Below are positions 4,301 through 47,257 of a stretch of DNA of 64,000 nucleotides, one piece after another. A program made the translations under genes and the position numbers. Every line of letters starts with the position of its first letter. Within the stretch, counting starts at the first letter, position 1. This DNA comes from Spinacia oleracea (lineage: Eukaryota > Streptophyta > Magnoliopsida > Caryophyllales > Amaranthaceae), in NCBI RefSeq assembly GCF_020520425.1, contig NC_079491.1:22869449-22933448 (forward strand), in the 5' to 3' direction. The notes beneath the pieces were generated by a model. That model did no database searches. It was given only the letters and a program-made list of their open reading frames with translations, and was not told the DNA's origin.

Positions 4301-4673
4301 AAATTTATTTTTGGACATACACATATGCGATGTAAATAAGATGATTATTTATAAGATGAGTGTTACCCGTTCACAAATTTCCGGTGCGGACAAATGATGA
4401 CCCAAATACATAATACTTCAATCACACTCTCTCTCCCCAAAAAAAAGAACCACCCCCTTGTTCCCTCCTAAGTCCCAACTCCTAAGCAATAAGCTAAACA
4501 GTTTTACAAATGTCAAGATCATAAATTCACACGTCTTAGTAATATTTAGTTTATTACCCCCTACAATGAGAACCACCCATGTCCAACCTCTATCAGAAAA
4601 TATGGTGTACGTATTCGAGAGCCATGTTCACCATGTTTTTAAATAAACATATTGTTCAAATTCAAAGAACGTA

Positions 4674-4932
4674 CTCCCTCTGTCTCAGAATACTCGCACC
4701 GGTTCGAGTCGACACAATTAACGATGCACAACTTTGACCACCAATATCTTTAACTACATATTATAAAAACTTATGAAATATTAATATTTTAAAAATATAT
4801 GTTAAGATGAAGCCAACAATATATTATATGCTAACTTTTGTTTTCGTATACTATAAATAAAATAGGGTCAATGTGAATTATGTGAATAGTGCAAAAAGTC
4901 AAACCGGTGCGAGTATTCCGGGACGGAGGGAG
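4674..4932. mobile_element. Stowaway-type MITE (Tc1/mariner)
   Basis: A 259-bp element flanked by TA on both sides (4672-4673, 4933-4934). The termini CTCCCTCTGTCTCAGAATAC and GAGTATTCCGGGACGGAGGGAG are inverted repeats of about 30 bp that include ACTCGCACCGGTT. There is no coding capacity. It belongs to the CTCCCTCCGT class found many times in this window. Confidence 0.85.
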
Positions 4933-5007
4933 TATGATTAAAAAAACAGTCAACTTGTACTTGTATATTGAAAATTTTCTCCATGTTGATCAAGTACTCA
5001 ATGAGTG

Positions 5008-12811: not shown

Positions 12812-13612
12812 TTCATTTACGTGCTTCTCTAATTATAATGAAACAGAACATTGTCCAATGGTACGGAGATTAGAATGATACAAATTGTTGTTGCTTTGTT
12901 GTGTATTAATACTAAGACCGAGCAAGTAGTGCTCTAACAAGTGTATGTCTTGTATTCTATGCTATGTGTTGTCTATTTAAAGGGTTCCTAATTTATAAAA
13001 AAAGGCAGCATTTTATGCTATCGGTCAATCAGAAAGTTTCTGTTTAAATGTGCAGTTGGGGACGTGTTCAATTGTGCAAATAAATTCATTGGTGTTTGAG
13101 GGAACCAAAGCGAACCCTTGATGTTCATCCTACACGTGGGTGTAAACCTATACTCGCGTTCTTTTCTCTAAATCTCTAATACTCCCACTGTGCTTTTTTT
13201 TTTCACCTTAAATTTATAATCTTTACTATCACACATTGAGTAAATACAATGACAATTACATTTTACACCACAAAATACTACGTGTAACTGTGTAAGGGGA
13301 ATGATGTACACGAGATACGATCCCTACTCCTTAATATCACCCCTAAAGACTACCCAATTAAACATGGCTTCCACATGGATGATAAAAAAAAGTCATGCCC
13401 CAGTGGCGTAGACAGGGTGTCAAGGGTGGGTCGCCGACCACCCAATTTTTTGTAAAAAAATAAATAAAAAACCTTTATATCGTATTTAATAGAAAAAGTA
13501 AATTAATACTGACTAATTACTAACATGTCAACACCCCGATTAAAAAATCCTAGCTCCGGCAGCCCCTCAGGCCTCAGTTAGCAATTGTGTCCTCAAAGCT
13601 CAAACAGAAGTC
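12812..13612. other. 3' flank and intergenic spacer
   Basis: Holds the presumed 3' UTR of the TIC32-like gene (an AATGAAACA-like signal near 12837) and then AT-rich spacer. Around 13401 the words CAGTGGCGTAGACAGG...GGTGGG recall the end of a common plant DNA-transposon repeat, but no full element could be bounded. No gene seen. Confidence 0.4.
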
Positions 13613-13613
13613 A

Positions 13614-13895
13614 TCAAAGACCCAAACTTCTGACAACACAAGCAGAGCTAGCAACCACAAGAGCAGCAAATATAGGAGGCACAAAAAGATCAATCTTAGA
13701 ACGTTGGAAAAACTTTGCAGGCAAACACACTACATCAGATGGAAGGTCCACCGGTACCCTAAAGCTGCTTTCTGATTTACACGCAGTTGAAAACGAAGAA
13801 GAAGGAGTTATCGCCCATAAAAAGCTAGTCTCCGGTGTTAAGGCTGCTACCGCCACTGTTACTGTCAGCAGAGCTGTCCATATACCTGCATACAT
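13614..13895 (-). CDS. Small conserved plant membrane protein, intronless
   Basis: From the ATG at 13893-13895 it encodes 93 residues, starting MYAGIWTALLTVTVAVAAL and ending ACVVRSLGL. There are two hydrophobic segments (about residues 6-20 and 74-88). Between them lies a hydrophilic part with SPSSSFSTAC, VPVDLPSDVVCLP and FFQRSKIDLFVPP. The pattern agrees with my memory of an uncharacterised plant protein family of this size (PSSSFS, LP-x-VLCLP and FVPP blocks); its function is unknown. The frame is open upstream, allowing longer starts up to 13964. The opposite-strand frame over the same DNA (13585-13995) has no recognisable features. Whether it is expressed cannot be told. Confidence 0.5.
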   Translation of the reverse strand: MYAGIWTALLTVTVAVAALTPETSFLWAITPSSSFSTACKSESSFRVPVDLPSDVVCLPAKFFQRSKIDLFVPPIFAALVVASSACVVRSLGL

Positions 13896-14845
13896 TATCA
13901 GCGGACGCCGCCATGAGTTCAAGCATTGTGAAAATATGGAGGTGATCATGATAGAAAGAGTCATTATTTTTTGGAGAAGGAAGAATTATTGTTGAAGAAT
14001 TGAGGATCAAGGTGCATAAATATATGGTTTTATGGTGTTAACTATGTTGATAATCTTAGTTTAGTTGCTTAACTAACTCATCACAGAATCAATGTTTATG
14101 GTGTTTTTGAGGATATAAATAGTAAGTATTGTTGTCTAAATATTGGTTGAAATGGAAGATGACGTTACGTTATGGAATTGAATATTAGTGGGTCGTGTTT
14201 GTTCATCTAAGAGATCACAGGGGGAATGTTAGATCAACTGCTCTGTGTATTTTTCTGTCTAATTCCAGACAGACTTATGCGGTATGGCCTTTATAGATCG
14301 GATTGACTAATACTCGGCTTGTTGACATCCCAAAAACATATTAAAATGGAATGTGGATTCATCATTAAAAAAATATAGATAGAGTTTAATAAAATGGAAA
14401 ACCAAGATCCGTTCTATTCTTGTCTTTGCCACATCACCTAAAAACATCGATCATATGTAAGCACTATACTTTGTATGATCGAACAAATAGTCACATAAAC
14501 GATGTGTTCAAGGCCCTATAGAAATTATTGTGCTTTCTCCATTTCATTGTCCTTGAAATAGCTATGGAAAACCCAAAAGAAGAACAGGTAGAAATCTTGG
14601 TATAATCTACTTCGTATTTGAGTTCACCTACCAGGAATATTATTACAAGAAACTCCAGCTCTTGTGTGATGAGGTGACGCAAATTTATGCGAATTTAGTA
14701 CAGCATTTCGTATGGTACACTTATACACACACACAAAAATAATTGACTTTTTATGGAAAAAAGAACTATATATTTAACAAATTAAATACAAATGGGAAAT
14801 GTATTATACAAGAGACTTAAATTTACAATTGCAACAGTAAATTGT
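13896..14845. other. Intergenic, no gene recognised
   Basis: AT-rich spacer between two minus-strand genes. The right part (about 14700-14845) is probably the 3' UTR of the UNC93-like gene. The small open frame at 14491-14682 has no supporting feature. Confidence 0.4.
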
Positions 14846-17800
14846 TCAGGCTGCTGAAAGATTAGAAGAGGACCCATTTATAACTTTGAGGGTGAGGATG
14901 AAAAATGCAGCCAAAGAAATGCAGAGTGCGGTAAGCATAATCGCAGCCATCATATGCAGCGATATATAAGGCGTCAGGAAGAAGATAACTGCGATGGAAA
15001 GGCTCTGCCAAACCTTCAACTGTGCAAATGCCCCCTCCTGCAATCAATTGAATTAGATTTAACGAATAAATAAACTACAAAATGATATAGCATTTCTACA
15101 AACTCCATGGGGCTTGGAGTAGAATACAAGACAAGATCAATGGCGAAAGAAGTCCATCCACAAAAAGAGAAGTAACAAATCCCCATTCTTCCCTCCCCCC
15201 TCTCCTTCCTTCAATTCGCTAGGTCATTACTTAATTAACACTGGACGACTGGAAGCAGACTGTCAATCACAAAAAACTCACTTATGGCTCAAACTCCCTC
15301 CCTCCCTCGTATCATTTTTTTAAAGGAAAAAAAACCCTTCATCTCCATGATTTAATATCTACAGGTGCTACAAGCACTATTTTCAACATTTGCACATTAG
15401 TGCTGCCGAAATGTCTTGATGTAGTAATAAGCATTATTAATTTGTAGACAATTTTTGGGTCTTCATTTCATCTATTATATTACATCAATAATGCTACCAC
15501 CCTTTCCCACATATCTAAGCACCAGTACTATTTATCCAGTAGTTCTACTACAATCCTCCTTCAAATATTTTTGTTAACAAGGGGTCTTTCAGAAGTAGCC
15601 TCTATTAACTTCCAAAAAAAATAAATAAATAGAAGAAGAAATAGCCTCCATAAACCAGAAAGGATAAATTTGCCAGAAATCCGGCCTCTATAGAAAGTGA
15701 AAAGATCTATCCTGATTCCTGGATATCGTCATAGACTAGTTGCATTCTATTTTGAAACTTCGATGTTGAACGGACGGAATAGTATCATTCATTCTGCCCG
15801 AAAGAAAACTTATGTGGATTCTTATCTTATTAAAAGAACAAAGCACCATCAGCAAAAAAACTCAAACTCATATAGTCCTGATCCATGAACTGTACAAGCT
15901 CCTTGTGAAGAAAATATATACTCATGTTATCACTGAATCCCCAGGGTATGAGCTTGGGTTTGATAATTCTAACTGATATAAAGGTCATTTCTGATATGAA
16001 TAGTCTAACAACCTATCGCGACATAATTTTGTCTACTTAGACAATTCTTTTCTTACATGGAACTCACATTATTGGCCTAGAGCCTCAAGACTCAACAACA
16101 GATTCACCTTAACCCATCAAGAGCAAGAGATTTAATTATCTTCGCTATTCATGCTCAAATACTCAAAGAGCAAGACAATAGTTTCGGAGTTTATAAGTAA
16201 CATTAAACAGTTACAAGACACACGCAGGGTTATCTAATGCGGTCCCTCCCCGTTCGAATTCCGATTTAGACCGATCGGAGTACGATCTCGAGCAATTCGT
16301 TCCAGTAAGCGATCTGAGTCGATTTCGAATCTATTCTCGAGCTAATTCGTATACAAGTATATATTCAATGATTTATTTTAAATTTATGTGTACTATATAA
16401 ATATCATTTAGTAATTTGTAATTTTTGATACGTAGATAAAGTACAAGCTTTCAAGTAACGTTTAGCTACCTCAACACAACATTAAAGACTCAAATTAAGC
16501 TAAAGGGATGAAGCTTGGTTGGGAGGTAAATTTTGGCCAAGCTAACAGAGTGGATCCTAGTCCGCAAGTTCTCATGAATCATTATCACCCCTAGTTACAT
16601 GAAATTAATGATCCTCTTGTTTCCAAATAGAAGAAGTAATGTTTGAGCCACAACAGCAGGTCTACAGATGAAACCCCGGAAGAAAAAAGTAATCTACAGA
16701 TCAATATTACTCCCTCCATTCCAGATTATTGTTGGGAATATGTGACACCCGATGAAGTTAAAAATTCTTTTATTGGCTTATTAAATAAACTTCCCATCTA
16801 TTGCCACAACATTATGCACTGAGCAGTAGATAACGATGCCAGATATGATGACCTATAGTCCACTGAAATAGCCAATACCCCAGACAAAACATATAGTAGA
16901 ATGAACTGGCAATAAAAACAGAGATCTGAGAGACTAATTGCTAGGGGCCATTTGCACTAAAAATGCCGTCCATCAGAATAGAAAATTTACCAGGTCGTGT
17001 TTGAAGAGCATCCCCAATAAAGCATTTATTTGCGTCATCAACACTCCATCACCAATGCCCAGTGCTGCAGCCATTAAGAGTGGGTACACCATCCCAAGAA
17101 CTCCACTAGTTGTGCTATTGTAGTATACATGAAGTACCGGAAATCAGAATGGATCTTCCACGGAACACAAATTTCACGCAAGTAGGACATACCTGTATTT
17201 AAGCAGAATCCAAAGCAGTACAATAGCATGAGCTGAAGATCCGCCCACAATTATCCAAGTAACTGACGAAACACTGGAGGTAAATCGACCCGCAACCAGA
17301 GAACACTGAATAGAAGTTCAACAAAAAGCTTAGTGGCTCAGTGATTCTCCATGATATGAACAAATTAAAAGTAACAAAAACGTTTCATAAAGATTAATGA
17401 AAACCCGTTTTAGAATATGGAAAGAGCAACTATGTATAATGAAAATAAAATATATAATTACAGCAACAGTATAAGAAAACATTGCTAATGATAATAAAAG
17501 TAATAAATAACAATGACCATGCAACAACATTGTAACGCTAAATATGCTAACATGCATAGTTACATATTAGAGCATCAGCAACAACACAATAAAATGATTA
17601 ATGCAAAAACAAATAAGATTAAAAAATGAGAGAAACAATAAGAAAGGCGATGATAAGAACGCCATACAAAAGATTGTTACCAAGTGCAAGTGTTGAAACT
17701 AGAAACTTTAAACCTCTAAAAGATGGATTTAAATGATGACCGGTTTGTTACATAAAGGCAATTAACAGATTGTCAATTTGATGTAGTGCAAAAAGTAGTT

Positions 17801-29643: not shown

Positions 29644-30352
29644 TTAAGGAAAGAAAGCAAAAGAAATAGAAGTCGATGCTGCAGATGTTGCAATGTCGTG
29701 TGTACCTTGAACTTGATCTCGACATACTTTTTGGATGTTGCACCAGTCAAACATTCTTCCCAGACGTTGAATCTCAGTCATGGTCCAAGGCAGGTTTATG
29801 TCAATCGTGCTCTGTTGGAGAAGCACTTCAACCAACATATGAGAGTCTGTTAGAACAGTGACATGTCGAACTGTAGCTGCAATTCTCCATCCAAGTGCAA
29901 ACAAACACGTGAGGACCTCCGCTTGAAGAGCTGACTTCGTTGTCCCTCCAGAAGCTCCACCTAAGATCCTATCCGACATTATCAGAGGGTTACTAAGCAC
30001 CCAACCCATTCCAGCTATTTGAGTATTCTTCTTCCAAGAGCCATCAACCTGAATGAAAGACATTATTCCTTGCATCCCTGAGTCAACAAGTATCGCTCTA
30101 AAAAATCCCGACGGATAAAGCGGATCACTTTTTGGAGGATGTAGGAAACGTAATGTAGGTAGAGGATGATTGCCAAAGATCTCTTGCTGCTTCAAGGCAT
30201 CCCTGATAATAATATCCACCGCGGGAACCCCACCGCGTTCAGTCCTGAAAACTCGGTTATTACGTGCTAACCAAAGACCCCAAAGAGTTGCAATGAAACA
30301 AATAACCCTCACACTCTTATTCCCATCCTGGCATTGAAAAATTCGGATATAT
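29644..30352 (-). mobile_element. LINE ORF2, 3' part with RNase H domain
   Basis: The open frame 29644-30312 (222 codons) starts inside the linker after zf-RVT (ATLWGLWLARNNRVFRTE). It continues into an RNase H domain (RVT_3 type): FIQVDGSWKKN (first Asp), SALQAEVLTC (Glu), VTVLTDSHMLVEVL (Asp). The frame reads back without a stop to 30352, where a CACTA transposon is inserted. Its 5' continuation is at 36113-36305. It differs in sequence from the LINE at 3545-4300, so at least two LINE families are present. A domesticated RNase H-like host gene is the alternative, but the zf-RVT piece across the insertion argues for a LINE. Confidence 0.8.
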
Positions 30353-30464
30353 CACTACAAAAAAACGCGGCACATTGTGACGCTTTTTGGGTCAAATTGC
30401 GACGGAAAATAGTGTCGCTATTTCACATAGCGACGCTCTGGTAAAGGGTCGCAATTTTCATTGC

Positions 30465-30652
30465 CGCTATTTACCGACGCTTTAGAGCGTCACAATTTGC
30501 AAAAATATCGATGTATTTCGCAGCCACTATTTTGGATATAAGGACTCTATAGGTAGTCGCTATTTACCGACGCTTTAGAGCGTCACAATTTGCAAAAATA
30601 TCGATGTATTTCGCAGCCACTATTTAGGATATAGGAACTCTATAGGTAGTCG
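30465..30652. repeat. Subterminal tandem repeat, period 94 bp
   Basis: Two copies starting at 30465 and 30559 share CGCTATTTACCGACGCTTTA, GAGCGTCACAATTTGC, AAAAATATCGATGTATTTCG and ACTCTATAGGTAGTCGC. They are part of the left subterminal region of the CACTA element. Confidence 0.85.
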
Positions 30653-33140
30653 CAATATTTAGACTAAAAAAAGCGTAACTATTTGCACGCTTATAGACGC
30701 ATTTCTCCGCCACTATCCACCATATAGCGATGCTTTTCGCACCCGAAATATATAGACTCTTATTAGAGTCCCTATCTTTACTTTCGTACGAGTTCTCCCC
30801 ATTCCCTCCAAAATAAGTTAGACCCTTTGGAGCGTCACAATTTCCATCATATTATTTTTTTCATGTATATATATATCAATTAATCTAAAATCAGGAATTA
30901 TCTATAAAAATTCATATTGACCATAGATAATCATAATCAAATACAAGTATTAACTTACTACGTACATTATCATAAAACAACATATATATATAACCACGTC
31001 ATACTATACTTTGATTCATATATACTTAGCGATAACATAGTTAATTTAGAAAAAATGATAACAATTTATACATTAAATTAATTCGCAGAGTTTTAAAACA
31101 AAAATAACTTTCTAACTAGCATCATTTTTTCTACAAGATAGTCCAAAACTAAATAAAAACAACTTCCTGACTACGAACAAACTAATTATAGTAAACCTAT
31201 CTTTATGCTAGCTTAGCTTCAAGATAACTTGTTCATCTCTTGATCTACATTTACTATTACCACTTAATCGTCAATAATCTGCAAAGAAAATTTAATATGT
31301 CAAATATATATAAAAAGCTTTATGAACATATTTTAAAATCAAGGGAAAATTAACAACAATAATCCAAACTACTAGTGGTATTCTCAAAATAATCATAACT
31401 GATAATTATTCAAAATATATAATACCAATTATTAATTGCCCCTTCCCAAAATAGTCCCCCTTTACCTATAACCTTTCAATGCGGTAACTTTAAAATAAAA
31501 TTTAAGTCAACAAATTAAAGTATCCTTTTAGATGGGTATTCAAGATGAACAGAAAAAAAAACCCAGACAAAATCCAAACCTAGGCAGAACTGATCAGAAC
31601 TGATCTGATCAGAAATAATAAGAATTGATCTGATCAGAACTTTCTTGTAAGAAAAGACAATGTTTTGCACTATGGAAGGTGTGAATGATGGTTTAGATTT
31701 GGTTACTTAGGGGTTTTAGGGGTTTTTCTATGTCAGGTTCCAAATTGTTTGGTTTTACTACAATGTTAGAACTAATGGATTGGAATTATGCAATATTTTT
31801 TTGTAGATCTTATTGATCTTATTCTAAAATGAAATTATCATTAGTTGTGTTAAAATAATTTATACGACAATTCACTTTCACAGGGGGATTAGTTGCTTTG
31901 GTTTCTTACTTTCTAAAAGTCAGTGCAAAGCTTATACTACTATTTCTATTCAATTTTGTTAAGTTACTTCATAGAAGCCTACACCAGTAACACAGACAAC
32001 TATATCCCACCTAATTACAGATTTTCTAGAATGGAATTAAAATGGGTTATAAGCAGATTAGCACCCTTCACACAGGCCCACAGCTATAAAGATTGTCAAC
32101 AACAGAAGTATATCCTGCCTGCTGGTTAGTGAATCCCTGGTTTCATTAACTAGATGAAGATGTTAAATAGAAATGGGTAGATGTTGTCATCTTGACACTA
32201 AATGATGAACCTTTGGAACTGGGGGGAAGAGAAGCTGGATCATTAACTAGGTGAACTCAAGGAAAAATTATCCACGAGAATGGAAATATGACTAGTTATT
32301 AGTAGCATTACCTGGGGTTACTAGCTCAACAGAACCGGCAAGTTATTTTTTGATAAATGACTTCTGCAAGTTGAGAAAATGTGACTTAATTCAAAACTGC
32401 AAGTTCATTCATTACATTCAATTAATGGGAATGTAATCAGTCATTCTCAGGCGAGATTCTAATAATCTAAAGAAGTAAAGAGTGTGCAAGCAGATAATGA
32501 CTAGCAAGTTTACAGCGAAAAATATAGCATCAAGTTAGAAACATAAGGCCAGGAGCACGATACTGAACTGCTGGATTTATATAAGCTTGAACTAACATTT
32601 TTTTTTTTTAATCTTTGTCTTCCTGGTTTTATTTCTGTCATTTTGAATCTCTAGATATTATGACCAGAAACATCTGATTATTATCAATTTTTTCTTCTGG
32701 AATTGTATGTCATTTGATGTGTATTTTGTGTCAACTTTTTTGAAGCTTACAGAGAAAGAAATCAGCAAAGCAGTAATGTCACCAGCTGGCTCATACTTCT
32801 GTATAGTGACTTGTGTCTGAGAGGAAAATTCAGACTATTTGCAACCTAATAGCTGCTTCTTTGATTTTGGTGTTATGGTTGGTATTTGTGTGTAAATATG
32901 CATATTTTTAGAAAATTCAGATTGTTTACAAGTTGAAATTCTATTTTATTGTGACTGGAATACTGGTTAGTACTTAGTAGTTTGTGTATTTGAAGTATAA
33001 CTTTTTTCATTCTGGAATTTTGTTTAAATTGAATATCACTATGTGTGCATTTGGTGTTTTGGTAGTATTGAAAGCTGCTGATTTTATTTAATTTGTGGAT
33101 TAAAGAAAACCAGCAGCTCATTTTTTTTAGAATATCCAAA

Positions 33141-33570
33141 GTCATTTGCGTCGCAGATTAGCTAAAACTGCGACGGAAATGACTTTTTTTTAAACATGTT
33201 GAAATATCATTTGCGTCGCAGATTAGCTAAAACTGCGACGCAAATGACTTTTTTTTAACATGCTGAAAAGTCATTTGTGTCGCACTTTAGCTAATCTGCG
33301 ACGCAAATGACTTTTCAGCATGTTTTAAAAAAAGTCATTTGCGTCGCAGTTTTAGCTAATTTGCGACGCAAATGACTTTTCAGCATGTTAAAAAAAGGTC
33401 ATTTGCGTCGCAGGTTAGCTAATCTGCGACGTAAATGACTCTTATTTACATCGCCCAAAAGTGCGACGCAAATGACTTTTTTCATTTGCGTCGCAGCCAG
33501 TTGCGTCGCACATTGGTGCGACGTAAATGGGCTTAAATGACCGACGCAAATGACTGTTTTTCCACTAGTG
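33141..33570. mobile_element. Terminal fragment of a second CACTA family
   Basis: The stretch ends TTTTTCCACTAGTG; read on the minus strand it begins CACTAGTGGAAAAACAGTCA, a typical CACTA terminus. It consists of about six palindromic units in which GTCATTTGCGTCGCAG and its complement CTGCGACGCAAATGAC face each other across TTAGCTAA-like loops. This is the subterminal-repeat architecture of CACTA elements. The opposite terminus was not found inside the surrounding element, so only one end is present or the other has eroded. It is nested within the 30353-36112 transposon and has a different terminal motif from its host. Confidence 0.65.
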
Positions 33571-33949
33571 GACACAATTGGAGGGAGTTCGAAGATCATT
33601 TTATCTCAACAAGATAGCATTAACTAAACGAGGCTTTAATGAGGCATAGTTTAACATTGCTCTGGACTTACAAATAAGGATCAAGCTAAAACTTTTATGA
33701 TATGAAAAGCGAGTGAATGTATCCATCATAAGACTAGAAAACACCTATAATGTCCCTGCAGTGGCAAATCCCCTTTCTTTCATAATTTTTTAGTGAAATA
33801 AAGAATCCCTTTCAAAGAGGTTTATCTTGTTTTCGGGCCTTTGGATAAGAGGATATTACCTAACCAAGAGCTCATTCTTCCAGCAACACAAGAAAAGACA
33901 AGCAGTACGAGCGGGCAGCGAATTCGCACAGATACATATCTGGACCAAC

Positions 33950-34003
33950 CTCTAAAGATGCTCTGACAAGAGGCCCCCGTCCAGCTCCAACGACCATCAA
34001 GAC
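33950..34003 (-). pseudogene. Captured PRMT5 exon inside CACTA element
   Basis: A 54-bp stretch encodes VLMVVGAGRGPLVRASLE, which matches the S-adenosylmethionine-binding motif I (GAGRGP) of protein arginine methyltransferase 5, one of the most conserved parts of that enzyme. It is bounded by ATGCAG before and GTTGG after, so an intact-looking exon with both splice sites was taken. No neighbouring PRMT5 exon could be recognised on either side. The piece is far too short to work as an enzyme. Gene-fragment capture by CACTA elements is well known in plants; the identity call here is from memory of the motif. Confidence 0.6.
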
Positions 34004-34039
34004 CTGCATCCAATAGAACCATGCACCATCAGCATCAGA

Positions 34040-34155
34040 AGTTAGCAGTTAGCACTTAGCAGCACCAGAAGTTAGCAGTTAGCGGCAATTAATGCAGTAG
34101 CATTAGCATCAACAGAAGTTAGCAGTTAGCACTTAGCAGCACCAGCAGTTAATGT
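34040..34155. repeat. TTAGCAGTTAGC tandem repeat
   Basis: Several copies of GAAGTTAGCAGTTAGC(ACTTAGCAGCACCA) follow one another inside the CACTA element, with a further diverged patch near 34370-34400. Non-coding. Confidence 0.8.
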
Positions 34156-36112
34156 AGTAGCAGTAAGCAATTTAGACACGAGGCAACAACAATTTAAGGG
34201 GAAACAAAAACAATTACAACTAAAGACTCTCGGAGTAATTTGTTTTAGGTCAAGCAGAATTTAGAGCTTACACTTAGACAGATATGTGCAAGACGAGGAT
34301 GAGAAAAGTTCTTAAACCCCAAAAGATAATCATATAAAAGGCCACTGCACATCACATGAACATGTAACTTATTAGCAGCAGTTAGCAGTTAGCAGAAACA
34401 ATAGTTAGCTAGCAGAATGGGTTCGACCTTTCAACCAAAACTGAAGATCACCCTAATAAGCAGAATGGGTTAGACCTAATTCAAAATGATCAGAACTTAT
34501 TGAATTTTTATATAAACTACTAGACAATAGACTTGGATATACTAGGATTCAGAATAGACTACTATAAAAGTGTTATAGAATATTAATTTATTCAAATAAG
34601 TGGGTCTGTTGATTTCATACTTGCTCAACCACATGGGGGAAGGGAAAATCATGTTACCTTAAAACAAATCATCTATTAGGATAAGAACAGATTTGATGTC
34701 ACCAAATTATTAGCTACTAACACTCTCTTGCCTCAAGAAACAAAGCTCTAAGGGCATGTTTAGGCAAGTCGACACAGTGTCATGACTCACGATCATAATA
34801 CTAAAGCTAAGATCATAGAACAAGTACGAGATCATCATCATAGAAAACTTCACTGAAGCCTGAAGGTGTTTTCCCCTTTAGACTTTTCATATTATATTCT
34901 TGAGCGTTTTAGACTTTTCAGAGGATGTGGAATTTTCTGGCTATATTGATTGAGCACTAATGTTGGTTTTCAGTGTAGACTAATACTATGAAAAAATCAT
35001 AATCAAATATCCATCAACAAAATTCAGCTAATCTCAATAAAATCAAATGAAAAACAAGCATTAAGGTCAAACTTATATCATCAAAAACAACAAAAAAACG
35101 ATAAACTAGGAAAAAAATAAAAAACAAAACATTATACTAGCAAAGAGACTACCTATTACCTAACAAACCATACAAATACCACACATAGTCCCTTTCCATT
35201 CAAGGATCAACAAAGAGCAATTGGAGCACACAAATAAGATGCGATAAATAATTGAATTTACTATGTTTTTCATCATTAGCAGCCGAAGAAGAGGAGACCA
35301 AAGATGAAAGAACAAATATCAATTAATGCGTGTAAACCAATAAAAAGTTGCAGAAAATTGAAATTGAAATTGCAGAAAACCGCCATTAACATCTCAAAAT
35401 TGCAGAAAATTGAAATTGAAATCGGAGAAAGTAGATGATAGTATGATACCAGTAAGCAGAAATCGGTCTCCTCTCGAACAAATCTCAGCAGAAATCGTTC
35501 TTCTCTCAAACAAATCTCAGCAAAAGTCGGGTTTTTTTCGAACAAATCCCCCAAGGCTACGAACTAAGCATAAACAAGTTGAGAAATTCAATCATTTTCG
35601 ACTAAATTAGGATAATCTATGAAGAAATTTGGGAGAGAATCAAGAGCAACGAAATATCTAAGCATCTATTGATTTATTTTTTAGGGAGAACGAATTTGGG
35701 ATTTTAGGGAAAACGAAGAACACTGGCTCCTGGAAAACGCATTTGGGGATTTAGGGGTTTATGTTTTGAAGTTTCAGTGAACACCGAGCAGTTGATTTTT
35801 GGGAGTGTTAGGTTGAGTCGGTTGTGTAAGGAATCTGACAATCGTGGGAGCAGGGATAAGAGAATTAGGCGGGATATTTAGGGCGAAATATTTGGCCAAA
35901 TATTTGGGCGAAATTTCCTTTTGCGGTTACAAACACGTGGGTTCCAAAAAAAAATTATTTGTAAATAGTGACGCTTTAGTACGTCGTAATGTATTGCGAC
36001 TCTGTACAGCGTCGCAATTTGCAAAGTTATATTCGCGCCTCAAAATATCTTGCGTCTCTTTGTTACACCGTCGCAAATACTCTATCTAAATATGTACCCT
36101 TTTTTTGTAGTG

Positions 36113-36305
36113 TATAGTAGAGAAACCACTCGGTAAAGGAAAGGTTCTTATTGATTTCTGAATGGATCGCAAGTGATCCACACCTCCAAACGCGTTTCGC
36201 ACAGTCAGAAAACCTAAATATGTGCTGAAATCCTCGTTCTCTTTTGCAAAAAAATCGCAAGTAAGAGACAACCGAACTCCTTTCTTGCCAACATTCACTT
36301 TCGAA
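36113..36305 (-). mobile_element. LINE ORF2, zf-RVT part (other half of split LINE)
   Basis: The minus strand encodes VGKKGVRLSLTCDFFAKENED and, after a one-base frame change, HIFRFSDCAKRVWRCGSLAI, ending SFTEWFLYY. This is the zinc-binding zf-RVT segment that precedes the RNase H linker. It runs up to the CACTA target site and continues in frame at 30352. The 5' boundary near 36305 is where similarity fades, so the LINE is 5'-truncated. Confidence 0.7.
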
Positions 36306-36778: not shown

Positions 36779-38190
36779 TGTTAGGTTATGATACATATGA
36801 TATTACATAAATCATGCGGAAACAACCATTAACCCAGGATTACATATTATTTACACATAATCATATAGCATAATTTAGATGCATACACTTTGTTGCGTGC
36901 CCTCCCTAGCTGCGCCCGAACCGAACAAGAACAAGTCTTTAGGACTCCAAGTGTCGTCCCTCCGTAGATAGTCCACAGCACGTCCGGATCCGCCTTAAGA
37001 TTGACCAACTAGAATCGCCCTTAAGGTACTAGAAAATTTCGGCACTTTTATGAGCAAGATGTGTGTTTTAATTTTCTCTCAAAAAACTCACTTTTGAATA
37101 CTTTGAAACTTCTTATAAATTGTGAGCCCTAGCCTCATATTTATAGGGGTATGGAAAAGGAATCGAAATCCTATTCAGATACAAATTAATTAAACCTAGA
37201 ATCCTACAAGAACTCTAATTTAATTAATTTATCAAATAGAATTAGGAATTTAATCATTAACCGAACTCTGCATGTTTTAGGAAACGTGCACGAACACAAA
37301 CACTTGCACACACACGCACGGCTGCCACGATGGGCCCCATGCGTGCGCGCGAGCAGCAGCCCAAGCAGCGCCCGCGCGCGCTGTGCGCTGCGCGTGCTGT
37401 GCGCGCTGTGCGCGCTGTGCAGCCTGCTGGGCCTGGCCTTGCGCTGGGCCTGGCGTGGCTGTTTGTGCGGCGCGCTTGGCTTGCTGGGCGATGGCCTGGC
37501 TTCGTGCTGGGCCTCGTCCGGCAGGCCTCGTCCGATGCTTATTCGTACGATGCGCTTCCGATTAAATTTTCCGATTCCGGAATTCATTTCCGATACGAAC
37601 AATATTTAATATTTCCGATTCCGGAATTAATTTCCGTTTCGAACAAATATTTAATATTTCCGTTTCCGGAATTATTTTCCGATTCCGGTAATATTTCCGA
37701 TTCTGACAATATTTCCGTTTCCGGCAATATTTCCGATTCTGGCAATATTTCCATTTCCGATAATATTTTCCGATACGTACCATGTTTCCGTTTCCGGCAA
37801 CATCTACGACTTGGATAATATTTATATTTCCGATACGATCCATATTTCCGTTTCCGGCAATATCATCGTTTCCGGAGTATTCATTTCTTGCCTGTGACGA
37901 TCTTAGCTCCCACTGAAACCAAGATCCGTCGGTTCCGAATATTCATAGATGGAGTATTTAATGCCATTAAATACTTGATCCGTTTACGTACTATTTGTGT
38001 GACCCTACGGGTTCAGTCAAGAGTAAGCTGTGGATTAATATCATTAATTCCACTTGAACTGAAGCGGCCTCTAGCTAGGCATTCAGCTCACTTGATCTCA
38101 CTGAATTATTAACTTGTTAATTAATACTGAACCGCATTTATTAGACTTAACATAGAATGCATACTTGGACCAAGGGCATTATTTCCTTCA
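36779..38190 (-). repeat. 3' LTR of the copia element
   Basis: 1412 bp, same length as its partner. It contains a GC-rich block (37310-37530, words GCGCGCTGTGC) and a run of short TTTCCGATTCCGG-like repeats (37555-37880). The repeat run recurs in the other LTR. Confidence 0.95.
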
Positions 38191-39054
38191 GTCTCCCACT
38201 TGTCCTTAGGGACAAGTGTGCATTTCCTAATTCCTTTGTCGCTCGATGCTTGCTCTTGAACATAAGGTAAGAGTTGTCATCCTTATTATGTCCAGAGGTG
38301 TTTCTCGGTTTCAGAGTTCAACTGATCAAATAAACAGATAATCATAGCCTATGATTCATCCGAGCACGGCCATGCATTTCACAGTTTCTAGCTCTCCGAG
38401 TGGCCTTGTACAACTTTTAAGCATCTCATCCCGATTTATGGGAGGACAATCCCAATCTTGCGATCTTGAGATTAGACTTCGTTTGATAGGTGATTACCCG
38501 AGCGTTGCCTTTATAGCCTCCTTTTACGGTGCGACGGTTGGTCAACGTCAAAGCAACCAGTTCTCAAACAAGTAATCTCAAATCACTCAGGTATTGAGGA
38601 TTTAGTGTCTAATAATTTAATGAAATTTACTCATGACAGATTTTCATCTCTTACAGTAAAGTTTCATAGGTCTTGTCCGATACTAGTCTTCCCAAAGTAA
38701 GTATCTATGCAAATGATTATGACATTGCCATGTCCACATAGTTCAAGAAACAGAACTACTAGTCATCTTGCATTCTAATCGTCTAACGTTTTCTATGCGT
38801 CCAATTTTATAGAAAACTCTGATTAGGGACCATTTTCAACCTTTGACATTCAAGTTCACTTGATAGACATTTCTTAGTCACAGGACTGGTCCTGACAGTC
38901 TATCTTGAATATATCGTCAAATTGAAGGGACTCATCATTTAATAAACCACAAATTAAATGGAAAAATGAATTCATTTCATTTATTGTGAATGATTAACCA
39001 ATAATGTTTTACAAAGATTTAAACTCTAAAACTTTAAAACATTAAATAGAGACA

Positions 39055-42000
39055 TCAAAGCCATTCTCCAATATGCTTGATTCCCATAGCTGCAGTGTGC
39101 GAGTTGTGCTTCGCCTGCGGCAGAGGTTTAGTTAATGGATCTGATATGTTGTCATCAGTTCCAATTTTGCTTATCTCGACTTCTTTTCTTTCAACGAACT
39201 CTCGTAGAAGGTGAAATCTACGAAGTACATGCTTGACTCTCTGGTGGTGTCTAGGCTCTTTTGCCTGTGCAATAGCTCCGTTATTGTCACAATACAGGGC
39301 TATTGGTCCTTTAATGGAGGGGACTACACCAAGTTCTCCTATGAACTTCCTTAGCCATATAGCTTCCTTTGCTGCTTCATGTGCAGCAATGTACTCCGCT
39401 TCAGTTGTAGAATCCGCAATGGTGCTTTGCTTAGCACTTTTCCAGCTTACTGCTCCTCCGTTGAGGCAGAAGACAAACCCAGACTGTGATCTAAAATCAT
39501 CTTTGTCGGTTTGGAAACTTGCGTCCGTATAGCCTTTAACAATTAATTCATCATCTCCACCATAGACCAGGAAGTCATCTTTGTGCCTTTTCAGGTACTT
39601 CAGAATATTCTTGGCAGCAGTCCAATGCGCCTCTCCTGGGTCTGACTGGTATCTGCTCGTAGCACTGAGTGCGTACGCAACATCCGGGCGTGTACATATC
39701 ATAGAATACATTATTGAACCAATCAATGATGCATATGGAATCCCATTCATTCGTCTACGCTCATCAAGTGTTTTTGGGCACTGAGTCTTGCTTAGAGTCA
39801 TTCCATGAGATATGGGTAGGTAGCCTCGCTTGGAGTCCGCCATCTTGAACCTATCAAGCACCTTATTGATATAAGTGCTTTGACTAAGTCCAATCATCTT
39901 TTTAGATCTATCTCTGTAAATCTTGATGCCCAATATGTATTGTGCTTCTCCTAGATCCTTCATCGAAAAACATTTCCCAAGCCAAATCTTGACAGAGTTC
40001 AACATAGGAATGTCATTTCCGATAAGCAATATGTCGTCGACATATAATACTAGGAAAGCAATTTTGCTCCCACTGACCTTCTTGTATACACAAGATTCGT
40101 CTGCGTTCTTGATGAAACCAAAGTCATTGACTGCTTCATCAAAACGTATATTCCAGCTTCTGGATGCCTGCTTCAATCCGTAGATTGACTTCTTTAGCTT
40201 GCATACCTTTTTAGCATTCTTTGGATCCTCAAAACCTTCAGGCTGTGTCATAAACACAGTTTCTGTTAAAACGCCATTTAAGAAAGCAGTTTTGACATCC
40301 ATCTGCCATATTTCGTAATCGTAATATGCAGCGATTGCTAACATTATTCGAATAGACTTTAGCATTGCAACTGGTGAAAAGGTTTCATCGTAATCCACAC
40401 CGTGGACTTGCCTGTAACCTTTTGCGACCAATCTAGCTTTGAAAACTTCAAGTTTCCCATCCTTGTCCTTTTTCAGTTTGAAAACCCATTTGCTTCCAAT
40501 GGCTTGGTAGCCATCTGGCAAATCGACCAAATCCCATACTTGGTTTTCAGACATGGAGTCTAATTCAGATTGCATGGCTTCTTGCCATTGCTTGGAGCTA
40601 GGGCTCGTCATAGCTTGCTTGTAAGTCGCAGGTTCATCACTTTCAAGTAATAGAACGTCATAGCTCTCGTTCGTCAAAATACCTAAGTACCTTTCCGGTT
40701 GAGATCTATATCTTTGCGATCTACGCGGGGTAACATTTCTAGATTGACCATGATTCTCACCAGATTCTTCTAAAGATCTCTGAGTTTCATCCTGAATGTC
40801 ATCTTGAGCATTCTCTAGAGTTTGTTGTTCGACTCGAATTTCTTCGAGGTCTACTTTTCTCCCACTTGTCATTTTGGAAATGTGATCCTTCTCCAAAAAG
40901 ACACCATCTCGAGCAACAAACACTTTGTTCTCAGATGTATTGTAGAAGTAATACCCCTTTGTTTCCTTTGGATAGCCCACAAGGATACATTTGTCAGATT
41001 TTGGATGAAGTTTGTCTGAAATTAATCGTTTGACGTATACTTCACATCCCCAAATCTTAAGAAAAGACACATTTGGAGGCTTTCCAAACCATAATTCGTA
41101 TGGAGTCTTTTCGACAGCTTTAGACGGAGCTCTATTTATAGTGAGTGCAGCTGTATTTAGTGCATGTCCCCAAAATTCTAATGGAAGTTCGGCCTGACCC
41201 ATCATTGACCTGACCATGTCTAGCAAGGTTCTGTTCCTCCGTTCTGACACACCGTTCCATTGTGGTGTTCCAGGAGGAGTCAATTCTGATAGAATTCCAC
41301 ATTCTTTCAGATGGTCATCAAATTCATAGCTCAGATATTCACCGCCTCTATCAGACCGCAGTGCCTTAATCTTCTTGCCTAATTGATTCTCTACTTCACT
41401 CTGAAATTCCTTGAATTTGTCAAAGGATTCAGACTTATGCTTCATTAGGTAGACATAACCATACCTACTGAAGTCATCAGTGAAAGTGATAAAGTAGCTG
41501 AAACCACCTCTAGCATTTGTACTCATTGGTCCACATACATCTGTATGGATTAAACCCAATAGTTCATTTGCTCTTTCTCCAACTTTAGAGAAAGGTTGCT
41601 TTGTCATTTTGCCAAGTAAACATGATTCGCATTTACCATAATCCTCTAAGTCAAATGGTTCTAGAATTCCTTCTCTTTGAAGTCTTTCTAAGCGTTTCAA
41701 GTTTATATGGCCTAATCGACAATGCCACAGATAGGTGAGATCTGAATCATCCTTTTTGGCCTTTTTGGTATTTATGTTATATACTTGTTTGTCGTGATCT
41801 AATAAATAAAGTCCATTGACTAATCTAGCAGATCCATAAAACATCTCTTTAAAATAAAACGAACAACTATTGTCTTTTATTATAAAGGAAAATCCCTTAG
41901 CATCTAAGCAAGAAACTAAAATGATGTTTTTAGTAAGACTTGGAACATGGAAACATTCTTCCAGTTCCAAAACTAGCCCGGAGGGCAACGACAAATAGTA

Positions 42001-43020
42001 AGTTCCTACAGCTAATGCAGCAATCCGTGCTCCATTTCCCACTCGTAGGTCGACTTCACCCTTGCTTAACTTTCTACTTCTTCTTAGTCCCTGTGGATTG
42101 GAACATAAGTGTGAGCCACAACCTGTATCTAATACCCAAGAAGTTGAATTAGCAAGTATACAGTCTATAACGAAAATACCTGAAGATGGAACGACTGTTC
42201 CGTTCTTCTGATCTTCCTTTAGCTTCAAGCAATCTCTCTTCCAATGCCCCTTCTTCTTGCAGTAGAAGCATTCGGATTCAGAAGTGGGTTGACTGACCTT
42301 CCTCTTTGCAGATTTGGCGCCAGTTTGCTTAGTTGGGCTGGCCTTGTTGCCACCTTTCTTAGCATTCCTCTTCTTTCCAGATTTCTTGAACTTGCCCCCA
42401 CGCACCATAAGCACATCCTGCTTATCACTTTTGAGCGTCTTTTCAGCGGTCTTCAGCATACCGTGAAGCTCAGTGAGCGTTTTGTCCAGACTATTCATAC
42501 TGTAGTTCAGTTTGAACTGATCATACCCGCTATGAAGAGAATGTAGGATGGTGTCTATAGCCATTTCCTGAGAAAATTGCTGATCCAGCCGACTCATATT
42601 CTCAATGAGTCCAATCATTTTGAGAACATGTGGACTTACGGGCTCGCCTTTCTTAAGCTTGGTCTCAAGAATTTGCCTATGAGTCTCGAATCTTTCGACT
42701 CGAGCCAGATCTTGGAACATGTTCTTCAACTCACTGATGATTGTGAAAGCATCTGAGTTGATGAACGTTTTCTGCAGATCCGCACTCATGGTGGCGAGCA
42801 TTAGACATTTCACATCCTTGTTGGCATCAATCCAACGATTGAGGGCTGCCTGAGTGACCCCGTCGCCTGCAGCTTCGGGCATCGCCTCATCCAGGACATA
42901 CTCCTTTTCTTCCTGCATAAGAACTATTTGCAAGTTCCTTTGCCAGTCAAGGAAGTTTTTCCCGTTCAACTTCTCCTTTTCGAGAATTGATCGAATGTTG
43001 AATGAATTGTTGTTTGCCAT
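39055..43020 (-). CDS. Copia gag-pol polyprotein
   Basis: The frame is open further upstream, but MANNNSFNIRSILEKEKLNG at 43018-43020 is the family-type start, giving 1321 residues. Order (approximate residues): gag of the UBN2 type 20-220; zinc knuckle CFYCKKKGHWKRDC near 250; protease DTGCGSH near 298; integrase zinc-binding region HCRLGHINLKR near 433; integrase core HTDVCGPM onward, 487-640, with the TPQWNGVSERRNR segment; reverse transcriptase about 830-1075 with YVDDILL near 995; RNase H starting YTDASFQTD near 1165. This is the Ty1/copia order, with integrase before reverse transcriptase. It is one continuous frame, consistent with a young insertion. Confidence 0.95.
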   Translation of the reverse strand: MANNNSFNIRSILEKEKLNGKNFLDWQRNLQIVLMQEEKEYVLDEAMPEAAGDGVTQAALNRWIDANKDVKCLMLATMSADLQKTFINSDAFTIISELKNMFQDLARVERFETHRQILETKLKKGEPVSPHVLKMIGLIENMSRLDQQFSQEMAIDTILHSLHSGYDQFKLNYSMNSLDKTLTELHGMLKTAEKTLKSDKQDVLMVRGGKFKKSGKKRNAKKGGNKASPTKQTGAKSAKRKVSQPTSESECFYCKKKGHWKRDCLKLKEDQKNGTVVPSSGIFVIDCILANSTSWVLDTGCGSHLCSNPQGLRRSRKLSKGEVDLRVGNGARIAALAVGTYYLSLPSGLVLELEECFHVPSLTKNIILVSCLDAKGFSFIIKDNSCSFYFKEMFYGSARLVNGLYLLDHDKQVYNINTKKAKKDDSDLTYLWHCRLGHINLKRLERLQREGILEPFDLEDYGKCESCLLGKMTKQPFSKVGERANELLGLIHTDVCGPMSTNARGGFSYFITFTDDFSRYGYVYLMKHKSESFDKFKEFQSEVENQLGKKIKALRSDRGGEYLSYEFDDHLKECGILSELTPPGTPQWNGVSERRNRTLLDMVRSMMGQAELPLEFWGHALNTAALTINRAPSKAVEKTPYELWFGKPPNVSFLKIWGCEVYVKRLISDKLHPKSDKCILVGYPKETKGYYFYNTSENKVFVARDGVFLEKDHISKMTSGRKVDLEEIRVEQQTLENAQDDIQDETQRSLEESGENHGQSRNVTPRRSQRYRSQPERYLGILTNESYDVLLLESDEPATYKQAMTSPSSKQWQEAMQSELDSMSENQVWDLVDLPDGYQAIGSKWVFKLKKDKDGKLEVFKARLVAKGYRQVHGVDYDETFSPVAMLKSIRIMLAIAAYYDYEIWQMDVKTAFLNGVLTETVFMTQPEGFEDPKNAKKVCKLKKSIYGLKQASRSWNIRFDEAVNDFGFIKNADESCVYKKVSGSKIAFLVLYVDDILLIGNDIPMLNSVKIWLGKCFSMKDLGEAQYILGIKIYRDRSKKMIGLSQSTYINKVLDRFKMADSKRGYLPISHGMTLSKTQCPKTLDERRRMNGIPYASLIGSIMYSMICTRPDVAYALSATSRYQSDPGEAHWTAAKNILKYLKRHKDDFLVYGGDDELIVKGYTDASFQTDKDDFRSQSGFVFCLNGGAVSWKSAKQSTIADSTTEAEYIAAHEAAKEAIWLRKFIGELGVVPSIKGPIALYCDNNGAIAQAKEPRHHQRVKHVLRRFHLLREFVERKEVEISKIGTDDNISDPLTKPLPQAKHNSHTAAMGIKHIGEWL

Positions 43021-45845
43021 ATTAAAAACTACAATTGAAAAGAATAAACAAATAAATAACCATTCACAGTTTCTCTTAATAAACTTAAATTCTAGCATAC
43101 ATGCATAATTCAATGTTTATTAAGCATTTTATTCAAATTATGTGTTCCGGCAGGTGTGAATAAAATGATTCCAAGATCCTAAAATCATTGAAGAACTAAG
43201 CACAGTTTGTCGACTTAATCCTAGAACATCTTAGGTAAGCAAAAGCCTTTTGCTAATAGTCTAGAAACTATTCTTGGTTGATAGGTACGTCTAAGAACTT
43301 ATTAGGTAAACCTATCGAATTTGCCACGACATAAAAGGACTCCTTACTTATATCGTTGAGTTTCACCAAAACTAACTTGTACTCACAATTATTTGTGTAC
43401 CTTGCCCCTTTAGGACCAATAAGTAACACCTCGCTGAGCGAAAACTATTACTAGATTGATGTAAAGGATATCCAAGCAAGTGTATATTTTGGCATGGCAC
43501 CTTTTAACTCAATTTTTAAGTTTGGAACTTAAGGCTCTTACTATGTTGGTTAGATTTTAAGTGAACTAAAATCCTTAATCATGCAACATAATCAAGCTTT
43601 TGATCTCATGCATTTTAAGACATATTTAAAACAATAAATAACTTAAAGCATGCATAAGATAAATGTGATCTAGTATGGCCCGACTTCATCTTGAAGCTTT
43701 GACTTCAAAGTCCGTCTTGAAAATCTCCGTGGGAGGCACCATTTTCTTCAAATAGGATAAGTTATAACTAATTACAACTATTTGATGGTACGCAGACCAT
43801 ATTTGAAAAAATAACTTTGGTACTTTAGACCAATTACATTCAAATTAATGGTACGCAGACCATATTTTCTATCCTATTTGGGCCATACTAGTCACTTCAT
43901 AACCTGCAAAACAGTACATATACAATATATACCATTCACCCATTCATTATCATGAATGGCCCACATAGCTGGTTAGTAAAACACATTATGCATCACGTAA
44001 ACATTTGCAGCAATTAATCAAGGGCACCAATAATCTACCAATTATTCAGTCCTTATTAATTCTAATCAAGTTGTTTTAACCTTAAGGATTTGTAGACCTA
44101 ATCAAGAGTTTATGACTAAAAAGCGCTCCCACTTAAACCAATAAATTTATATGCTTTACTAATTTTAAACATAAAAATGTATTTCTAGTCCAACCGGAAA
44201 CATACAAATTTAATTAAAATTTAAAGCTCATATCAATTTATAATTGAATCCAAAAAGTTTAATTTAATTTCAGTCGTATTTAAATTAATTCATGATTTTA
44301 ATTTTAGTAAAATAATTAGAATAAATAAAATTTATTATAATTACAATATTCAAAATTAAAATCCAAGAAAATAATTTAAATTATTAATTTTAAAATTAAT
44401 TAAAATTACGTGAACTGAAATTTTCAAGTTAAACATTCAAAACGATCTTTAATCGTAACGCAAACACCCTACGCGTTGCACGCCCATGGGCCGCACGCAC
44501 ACAGCCATTGCTGGCCATGTGCGCGCAGCCCATGCGCTCGTCGCATAGCTGCTGCATCCCCATCGCAAGCCTCCGCACGCATTGGTGCTTGCTGCGCGCG
44601 CCAGCGCTCATCGCACGCGAGCTATCGCTCGCAGTGCGCGCGCGACATCGCTCGCTGGGCGCGCGACATCGCTCGCTGGGCGCGCGAGCCATCGCTCGCT
44701 GGGCGTGCGACATCGCTCGCTGTGCGCGCGAGCAATGCTGGCTGTGCGCGCGAGTCCTCGCTCGATGTGCGCGCGAGCAATGCTGGGCGCAGCGCTCGTG
44801 GCACGCGAGCTTGCGCTCGCTGCGCGCGAGGCTGCGCGCTCTTGTGCGAGGCAGCGCGCGTTGTGGCGCAGCTCGCTTGCTGCCCACACGCGACTGCCTT
44901 GGCTCGCCCTTCGCCCATGCCCATTCGTCCATTGCTCGTGGCACACGACACAAGGCAGGGCTGCTGCCTTGTGCTCGTGCACTACGCCCTTGCTCATTGC
45001 ATTCGTGCCGCACGGGCGACGAGCTCCCTTGCTCGTCGTCGCATGCCCGCATTATACAACACCCCTTAAGGGTTACACGAAGCGTCCATTGCTTCGTGCG
45101 TGCAAGTTTTATGAACGAATCGCATAAAAATTTAAAATTTATATTTAAAATTAATGACAAATTAATAAATAATATTAATTTCATAATTGTAGGGCGATAA
45201 ATCGAAAATTTATTATCCAATTGATTTCCGATTGTTATGGATTCAAGTCTAGGTCATAAAAATTTAAAATTTATCATAAATTTACAATTTTTATGGTGGT
45301 TTTTAATCATAGGTTTCTAATTAAATTACAATTAATTATGAAAATCAAATTAATTCTAAATTATTCTAATTTTCAACAAATTAATCATAATTACAAATTA
45401 GATTGCATAATTAACAAGACTAGGCATTCAAACTTGTTAAACATATGCAGTAGGTCAATCAAAAATTCAAGATTTATCAACAAGAATCGCAAATATTTAA
45501 TTTAACATCTTAAATTTACGAAATTTTGCATTCGAAAAACTAAAACCTTCGAAAAGTCATAGTTAGGCTTCGAATTTGAGAATTCTGGGTTCGGCAGAAA
45601 AAGATTATTTTTGTCAAAATTTTAGAATGCCTTTTACATGCGGAATTGACACAAAAATCACTCAATTCGGATGAGTAACGAAGAAACTGCCGAAAAACTG
45701 CGTACGTATAATTAAATAAACGCAATTTGCAATTAATTAACAATTACGAAAATTAATCACCCCTTTTAATTCTTGCAAATTTGTAATATTTAACCATGTT
45801 CATGCAATTTAGATTATGAAAATAATAAGGGGCTCGTGATACCAC
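43021..45845 (-). other. Copia 5' leader, non-coding
   Basis: A 2.8-kb leader lies between the 5' LTR with its primer-binding site and the gag start. It is AT-rich apart from a strikingly GC-rich repeat block at 44464-45060. No domain-bearing frame was seen. Confidence 0.8.
44464..45060. repeat. GC-rich degenerate tandem repeats in the leader
   Basis: Repeats of about 27-30 bp built from CGCGCGAGC, ATCGCTCGCTGGGCG and GCGCGAGCAATGCTGG, in a region whose flanks are AT-rich. The repetition leaves many frames open by chance on both strands. Confidence 0.8.
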
Positions 45846-47257
45846 TGTTAGGTTATGATACATATGATATTACATAAATCATGCGGAAACAACCATTAAC
45901 CCAGGATTACATATTATTTACACATAATCATATAGCATAATTTAGATGCATACACTTTGTTGCGTGCCCTCCCTAGCTGCGCCCGAACCGAACAAGAACA
46001 AGTCTTTAGGACTCCAAGTGTCGTCCCTCCGTAGATAGTCCACAGCACGTCCGGATCCGCCTTAAGATTGACCAACTAGAATCGCCCTTAAGGTACTAGA
46101 AAATTTCGGCACTTTTATGAGCAAGATGTGTGTTTTAATTTTCTCTCAAAAAACTCACTTTTGAATACTTTGAAACTTCTTATAAATTGTGAGCCCTAGC
46201 CTCATATTTATAGGGGTATGGAAAAGGAATCGAAATCCTATTCAGATACAAATTAATTAAACCTAGAATCCTACAAGAACTCTAATTTAATTAATTTATC
46301 AAATAGAATTAGGAATTTAATCATTAACCGAACTCTGCATGTTTTAGGAAACGTGCACGAACACAAACACTTGCACACACACGCACGGCTGCCACGATGG
46401 GCCCCATGCGTGCGCGCGAGCAGCAGCCCAAGCAGCGCCCGCGCGCGCTGTGCGCTGCGCGTGCTGTGCGCGCTGTGCGCGCTGTGCAGCCTGCTGGGCC
46501 TGGCCTTGCGCTGGGCCTGGCGTGGCTGTTTGTGCGGCGCGCTTGGCTTGCTGGGCGATGGCCTGGCTTCGTGCTAGGCCTCGTCCGGCAGGCCTCGTCC
46601 GATGCTTATTCGTACGATGCGCTTCCGATTAAATTTTCCGATTCCGGAATTCATTTCCGATACGAACAATATTTAATATTTCCGATTCCGGAATTAATTT
46701 CCGTTTCGAACAAATATTTAATATTTCCGTTTCCGGAATTATTTTCCGATTCCGGTAATATTTCCGATTCTGACAATATTTCCGTTTCCGGCAATATTTC
46801 CGATTCTGGCAATATTTCCATTTCCGATAATATTTTCCGATACGTACCATGTTTCCGTTTCCGGCAACATCTACGACTTGGATAATATTTATATTTCCGA
46901 TACGATCCATATTTCCGTTTCCGGCAATATCATCGTTTCCGGAGTATTCATTTCTTGCCTGTGACGATCTTAGCTCCCACTGAAACCAAGATCCGTCGGT
47001 TCCGAATATTCATAGATGGAGTATTTAATGCCATTAAATACTTGATCCGTTTACGTACTATTTGTGTGACCCTACGGGTTCAGTCAAGAGTAAGCTGTGG
47101 ATTAATATCATTAATTCCACTTGAACTGAAGCGGCCTCTAGCTAGGCATTCAGCTCACTTGATCTCACTGAATTATTAACTTGTTAATTAATACTGAACC
47201 GCATTTATTAGACTTAACATAGAATGCATACTTGGACCAAGGGCATTATTTCCTTCA
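45846..47257 (-). repeat. 5' LTR of the copia element
   Basis: 1412 bp, near-identical to 36779-38190. It is upstream in the element's own direction. Confidence 0.95.

Follow-up and report, generated by a model that had tools for sequence, protein, structure and literature searches.

A CACTA transposon in the spinach genome carries an 87-bp piece of the host's own PRMT5 gene: one complete exon with intron sequence on either side. The element lies in the window (the whole stretch of DNA analysed, 64,000 nucleotides, C5:22869449-22933448). In our reading, to which we give a probability of roughly 0.88, it is an apparently non-autonomous Pack-CACTA, the PRMT5 piece having probably entered as filler DNA, the element presumably moving by transposase supplied in trans and the exon being a likely neutral passenger. 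The genome searched comprised 894,210,420 bases in 242 contigs, and the match counts given below are lower bounds.

On the minus strand, window positions 33950-34003 read as 18 codons, VLMVVGAGRGPLVRASLE, in phase 0 at both ends, with TGCAG before and GTTGGT after; the codons and the AG and GT framing them are as the original prediction described. We take this exon to code for the cofactor loop of PRMT5, an enzyme with important roles in splicing and methylation. Beyond the 54-bp exon, which stood, the captured stretch proved larger than predicted: it covers 87 bp (33921-34007, minus strand), in which the 54-nt exon is preceded by 4 nt of upstream intron (GCAG, with the splice-site AG) and followed by 29 nt of downstream intron (with the GT). 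When aligned to the host's own PRMT5, introns included, positions 33922-34007 are 95.3% identical over 86 bp to the gene on C1 (E 4e-33), and positions 33921-34007 are 97.7% identical over 87 bp to a PRMT5 copy on C4 (E 2e-36). Element and C1 gene agree at 53 of the 54 exon bases. The one difference, at exon base 39, is synonymous, and unbroken identity within the exon extends over at most 38 nt. The exon borders (AG/GTC...GAG/GT, slashes marking the borders) and the phase are also the same in both.

The proposed similarity of the flanks to PRMT5 introns was found as well, for 29 nt downstream and only 4 nt upstream, with a sharp stop on both sides. These sharp edges belong to the element and not to the gene, because the C1 and C4 PRMT5 loci are alike well past both of them (87% over 1.2 kb). 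Intron sequence on both sides of the exon means that the piece came from genomic DNA, and an origin from processed mRNA is thereby ruled out. The 87-bp piece is host PRMT5 genomic DNA with identical exon borders.

Searched against the whole genome, a query of 301 bases around the exon (from 33800) gave 33 matches: six are full length (95-100%), nine cover the first 119-124 bases only and so are without the exon, two fall inside the exon piece (bases 122-208) and 16 are confined to the minisatellite beyond. The two places matching the exon piece only are C1:118012664-118012749 and C4:1347462-1347548. The Pfam profile for PRMT5 (PF05185) has three matches at C1:118.010-118.015 Mb, on the minus strand and in the expected order, and the exon lies there on the same strand between profile parts 10-42 and 103-140. 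One further PF05185 match is at C4:129.40 Mb. A 133-aa test peptide was made from five exons of the C1 locus joined by eye, with the captured exon in place. Against PDB it matched 4g56 (named Hsl7; E 1.7e-54) and the PRMT5 chain 4gqb (E 2.1e-53), and its alignments to solved PRMT5 chains show no gap at the borders of the captured exon. Among the PDB matches PRMT5 was far ahead of PRMT4/CARM1 and PRMT8.

At the C4 locus PRMT5 is duplicated in part: 1.7 kb of similarity (87%) holds the captured exon and the preceding one, and the C4 version of the captured exon has GAGWGP where C1 has GAGRGP. This partial duplicate spans 4104-5843 within C4:1342500-1352400, and the DNA on either side of it, judged by eye, resembles retrotransposons. 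The window element differs from C4 at 2 of 87 positions and from C1 at 4 of 86. At exon base 39 and at intron bases it agrees with C4, and its R codon is intact as in C1; one C4-favouring intron site varies among the element copies, that at C6:136.39 Mb having the C1 base and matching C1 at 97%. The predicted origin from genomic PRMT5, exon and intron flanks together, is therefore upheld by the identical borders and the 29 and 4 nt of intron, and is revised in that the nearest relative is the C4 duplicate and not the C1 gene. The copied sequence thus appears nearer to the C4 partial duplicate, in a comparison that is unpolarised because it includes no PRMT5 outgroup from another plant. Two sequences could have been the immediate donor, either the C4 duplicate as it was before R became W or an older allele of PRMT5. 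A third PRMT5-derived stretch of about 1.8 kb (89-94%; 4206-5996 within C4:129400000-129409900) sits between two inverted repeat copies of about 1 kb or more (1-1012 and 8410-9901 of the same interval), and is possibly another transposon-borne capture.

The element is of the CACTA (En/Spm) type and 5,760 bp long (30353-36112; it and its parts are given without strand, apart from the PRMT5 piece). It starts with CACTACAAAAAAA and ends with TTTTTTTGTAGTG, the CACTA...TAGTG inverted-repeat termini, and has a 3-bp target site duplication (TSD), TAT, at 30350-30352 and 36113-36115. The empty site was sought with a 300-base query consisting of both element flanks joined, one TAT removed. Its bases 1-300 were matched at 11 other genome places (89%) among 40 matches listed, and these places appear to be paralogs of a LINE-like repeat with the target site empty. 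The joined-flank matches at 11 other places confirm independently that the ends, CACTA termini with a TAT duplication as originally predicted, are correct, and the insertion was into a copy of the LINE-like repeat. An open frame in the left flank encodes a reverse-transcriptase-like domain (PF13456, E 8.7e-14), as plant LINEs do. A repeat search of the window found subterminal direct and inverted repeats at both element ends: on the left GACGCTTTAGAGCGTCACAAT and variants (30476-30841), with right-side counterparts at 35970-36018. The longest ORF in the element starting with ATG, GTG or TTG is 92 aa, and 12 ORFs reach at least 50 aa; the element is apparently non-autonomous. Its identified genic part is 87 of the 5,760 bp.

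The interior is a patchwork. Positions 31920-32787 are colinear in pieces with C3:159.144-159.146 Mb, where no convincing coding sequence was seen. An inverted-repeat-rich stretch, 33121-33570, has dense TCATTTGCGTCGCAG-type inverted repeats and CACTAGTG at its end; its left end was not found, and it was not seen at the same point in the eight relatives compared. It is apparently part of a nested CACTA-like repeat. There follow a segment common to CACTA family members without the PRMT5 piece (33569-33923), the piece itself, and a segment opening with a TTAGCAG-type minisatellite (34030-35757). We also considered whether 33569-33923 might derive from another host gene; a 31-aa border peptide, taken from a relative, had no PDB match at E up to 10, and the segment was left as family sequence.

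Elsewhere in the window there is a Ty1/copia retrotransposon (37261-46885), whose minus strand is open for 1,353 aa (39055-43116). Two ORFs of 185 aa each (37261-37818 and 46328-46885), which have the same reading, flank this frame and are probably parts of the LTRs. Apparent host genes for an ArfGAP protein (PF01412; 50588-51739, plus strand) and a CHX-type cation/H+ antiporter (PF23256; 59003-60016, minus strand) are also present.

The window element has company. Four other copies of about 5.75 kb are 98.9-99.4% identical to it, and full ends with TSDs are found in four of these five: the window copy (TAT) and those on C2 (AAA), C6 (CAT) and at C5:34.03 Mb (TCT). The copy at C4:179.58 Mb is missing its last bases at the right end. 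A sixth place, C3:112.06 Mb, is more diverged (95.8% over 33569-35824) and has the same PRMT5 piece and junctions. With PRMT5 exon-intron DNA as the query, all eight matches were accounted for by these six element copies, the C1 gene and the C4 duplicate. All six copies retain the AG and GT flanking the exon, and two of the five other copies change one exon residue relative to the window copy, V to I at C5:34.03 Mb and R to K at C3:112.06 Mb (alignment by eye).

Four elements with complete ends, each with its own 3-bp TSD, show that the piece was mobilised as part of the element. The same two junctions at all six places found imply one capture followed by spread, and rule out several independent captures. 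Capture by a CACTA element, as originally predicted, is thus confirmed with the host's own gene in hand; what has changed is that the capture was one event common to six or more places and that the element is a mosaic.

The PRMT5 piece lies at a seam within that mosaic. On its left, 33569-33923 also occurs at nine places without the piece (query matches from 33800 to 33918 or 33923); at eight of these nine the right end of the element is matched too, within the roughly 10 kb fetched. On the right of the piece, what follows from 34089 onward recurs at 93% in a sister element at C5:87.81 Mb. This sister gave no exon match in the genome searches with the 301-base and PRMT5 exon-intron queries, and 33570-33923 was found neither in the 2,001 bases fetched from it nor in the part of it that was matched. 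In the diverged copy at C3:112.06 Mb two stretches correspond to the sister, 12609-12867 to its positions 1408-1666 and 14951-15251 to its positions 1664-1960. In the sister these adjoin, and the insert of about 2.1 kb that lies between them in the C3 copy (12868-14950) is missing. The insert consists, in order, of about 100 bp that are mostly unassigned, a 1.8-kb segment (12966-14773) that is 90% identical to another CACTA family member, the PRMT5 piece (14776-14862) and extra minisatellite.

Filler DNA arises when the repair of a break copies from several templates. The 2.1-kb insert looks like a single composite insertion of this kind, judged from its make-up in a comparison with one sister copy. 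Repair of a double-strand break in a related CACTA element, or abortive gap repair of it, would have copied the PRMT5 piece as filler, and the same repair would have added the piece of about 1.8 kb from another family member. The element would since have moved by transposase supplied in trans, with the exon as a neutral passenger. The difference between the C3:112.06 Mb copy and the sister could instead stem from a later deletion in the sister, across the 3 shared bases. Against a simple deletion, though not decisively, speaks a relative at C5:49.50 Mb, in which the sister-like stretch comes after and not before the 1.8-kb segment; for this reason we argue that the segment has moved.

The same relative (8,934 bp, with a matching TSD, ATT) carries a piece of another gene, an AAA ATPase domain (PF00004, E 1.5e-24) at its positions 1410-1859 (C5:49497609-49498058). 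At 94-100% identity this 450-base stretch has 22 genome matches, of which 21 are close to full length and 16 are at 97%. This CACTA group therefore probably carries at least one gene piece besides that of PRMT5.

We take the exon to be most likely a passive passenger, with no effect on PRMT5, and three more active roles were weighed against this reading. The first, very unlikely in our judgement, is that it serves as a cassette exon, spliced into transcripts that cross an element copy, by analogy with the soybean element Tgm-Express1. The retention of AG and GT in all six copies, the length of 54 nt with phase 0 at both ends and four YTNAY branch-point-like motifs starting 29-49 nt upstream would all suit this role, and there is a published 5.7-kb CACTA element whose five gene fragments are spliced as exons (PMC1947982, in the part available). 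However, the capture took in no more than 4 nt of the PRMT5 3' splice-site region, the rest being mostly element sequence; pyrimidines make up 0.53 of positions -20 to -4 as against 0.59 in PRMT5, a small difference; and the window copy sits in a LINE-like repeat.

It is highly improbable, secondly, that the exon gives rise to small RNAs or antisense RNA that silence or tune the host PRMT5. The 38-nt run identical to the PRMT5 exon would be enough for perfect matches of 21-24 nt, and at least six copies of the piece exist, but the longest inverted-repeat arms (33121-33396) exclude the exon, and according to a review selection may remove silencing of essential donor genes. For the originally suggested action on PRMT5 transcripts, through antisense RNA or splicing, the observations in favour amount to the 38-nt run of identity and the retained AG and GT. 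The third role is about as improbable: a complete PRMT5 exon would be kept as camouflage or as a PRMT5 tuner, its small RNAs also hitting PRMT5. If this were so, any silencing of the element would damage the host's PRMT5 as well.

Finally, the short length of an 18-codon match, taken by itself, might have allowed for chance or for an origin in another methyltransferase; both are ruled out, with next to no probability left to them, by a nucleotide match of 86-87 bp that includes intron sequence (E 4e-33 and 2e-36) and by the far better PDB match of the gene to PRMT5 than to PRMT4/CARM1 or PRMT8.

The element has close counterparts among known systems. Gene capture by plant transposons is already well known, CACTA captures of comparable size are in print, and the original statement that CACTA elements pick up host gene pieces agrees with the Chenopodium and soybean examples below (cited here from the portions of the articles available). 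By its CACTA termini, 3-bp TSD, subterminal repeats, host gene piece and several copies the window element fits Pack-CACTA. Pack-CACTA and other Pack-TYPE elements are described as non-autonomous, with CACTACAA ends, host coding pieces and mostly low copy number; one has a captured insertion of 58 nt that is 98% similar to LOC103626209, and others are mentioned that combine pieces of several loci (PMC8903248, in part). The window element is like these in having a host coding piece between CACTACAA ends, and unlike the examples given there in its host gene, its very small genic part and its mosaic structure with a nested repeat.

Of the same plant family are CACTA elements of Chenopodium, with a putative 80-bp AP2 fragment in three species, Neprosin fragments and a 3-bp TSD, for which the available text points to the mechanism described by Rubin and Levy (PMC8978399). 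Both cases are Amaranthaceae CACTA elements with small host pieces and 3-bp TSDs; as far as that text goes, the Chenopodium elements have transposase domains and their pieces lie upstream of the coding region, whereas the window element has no long ORF and its donor is PRMT5. Tgm-Express1 (5,722 bp) is nearly equal in size and likewise holds host exons with splice sites. In the part of its description available, it carries five gene fragments and lies in an intron of F3H, with splicing demonstrated by RT-PCR (PMC1947982), while the window element, known from DNA alone, has one identified exon and lies in a LINE-like repeat. In the literature searched (full text, and a wider search among the matches listed) a pairing of PRMT5 with CACTA was not found in print, and for CACTA elements in spinach the phrase 'spinach genome' was not found among the literature matches listed.

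The element is a clean example of a CACTA transposon acquiring a very short genomic piece of a gene. Because candidate donors, an exon-less sister, a diverged copy and the empty site are all present in one genome, the repair-filler route is testable here. The capture would be of greater importance if the piece affected PRMT5.
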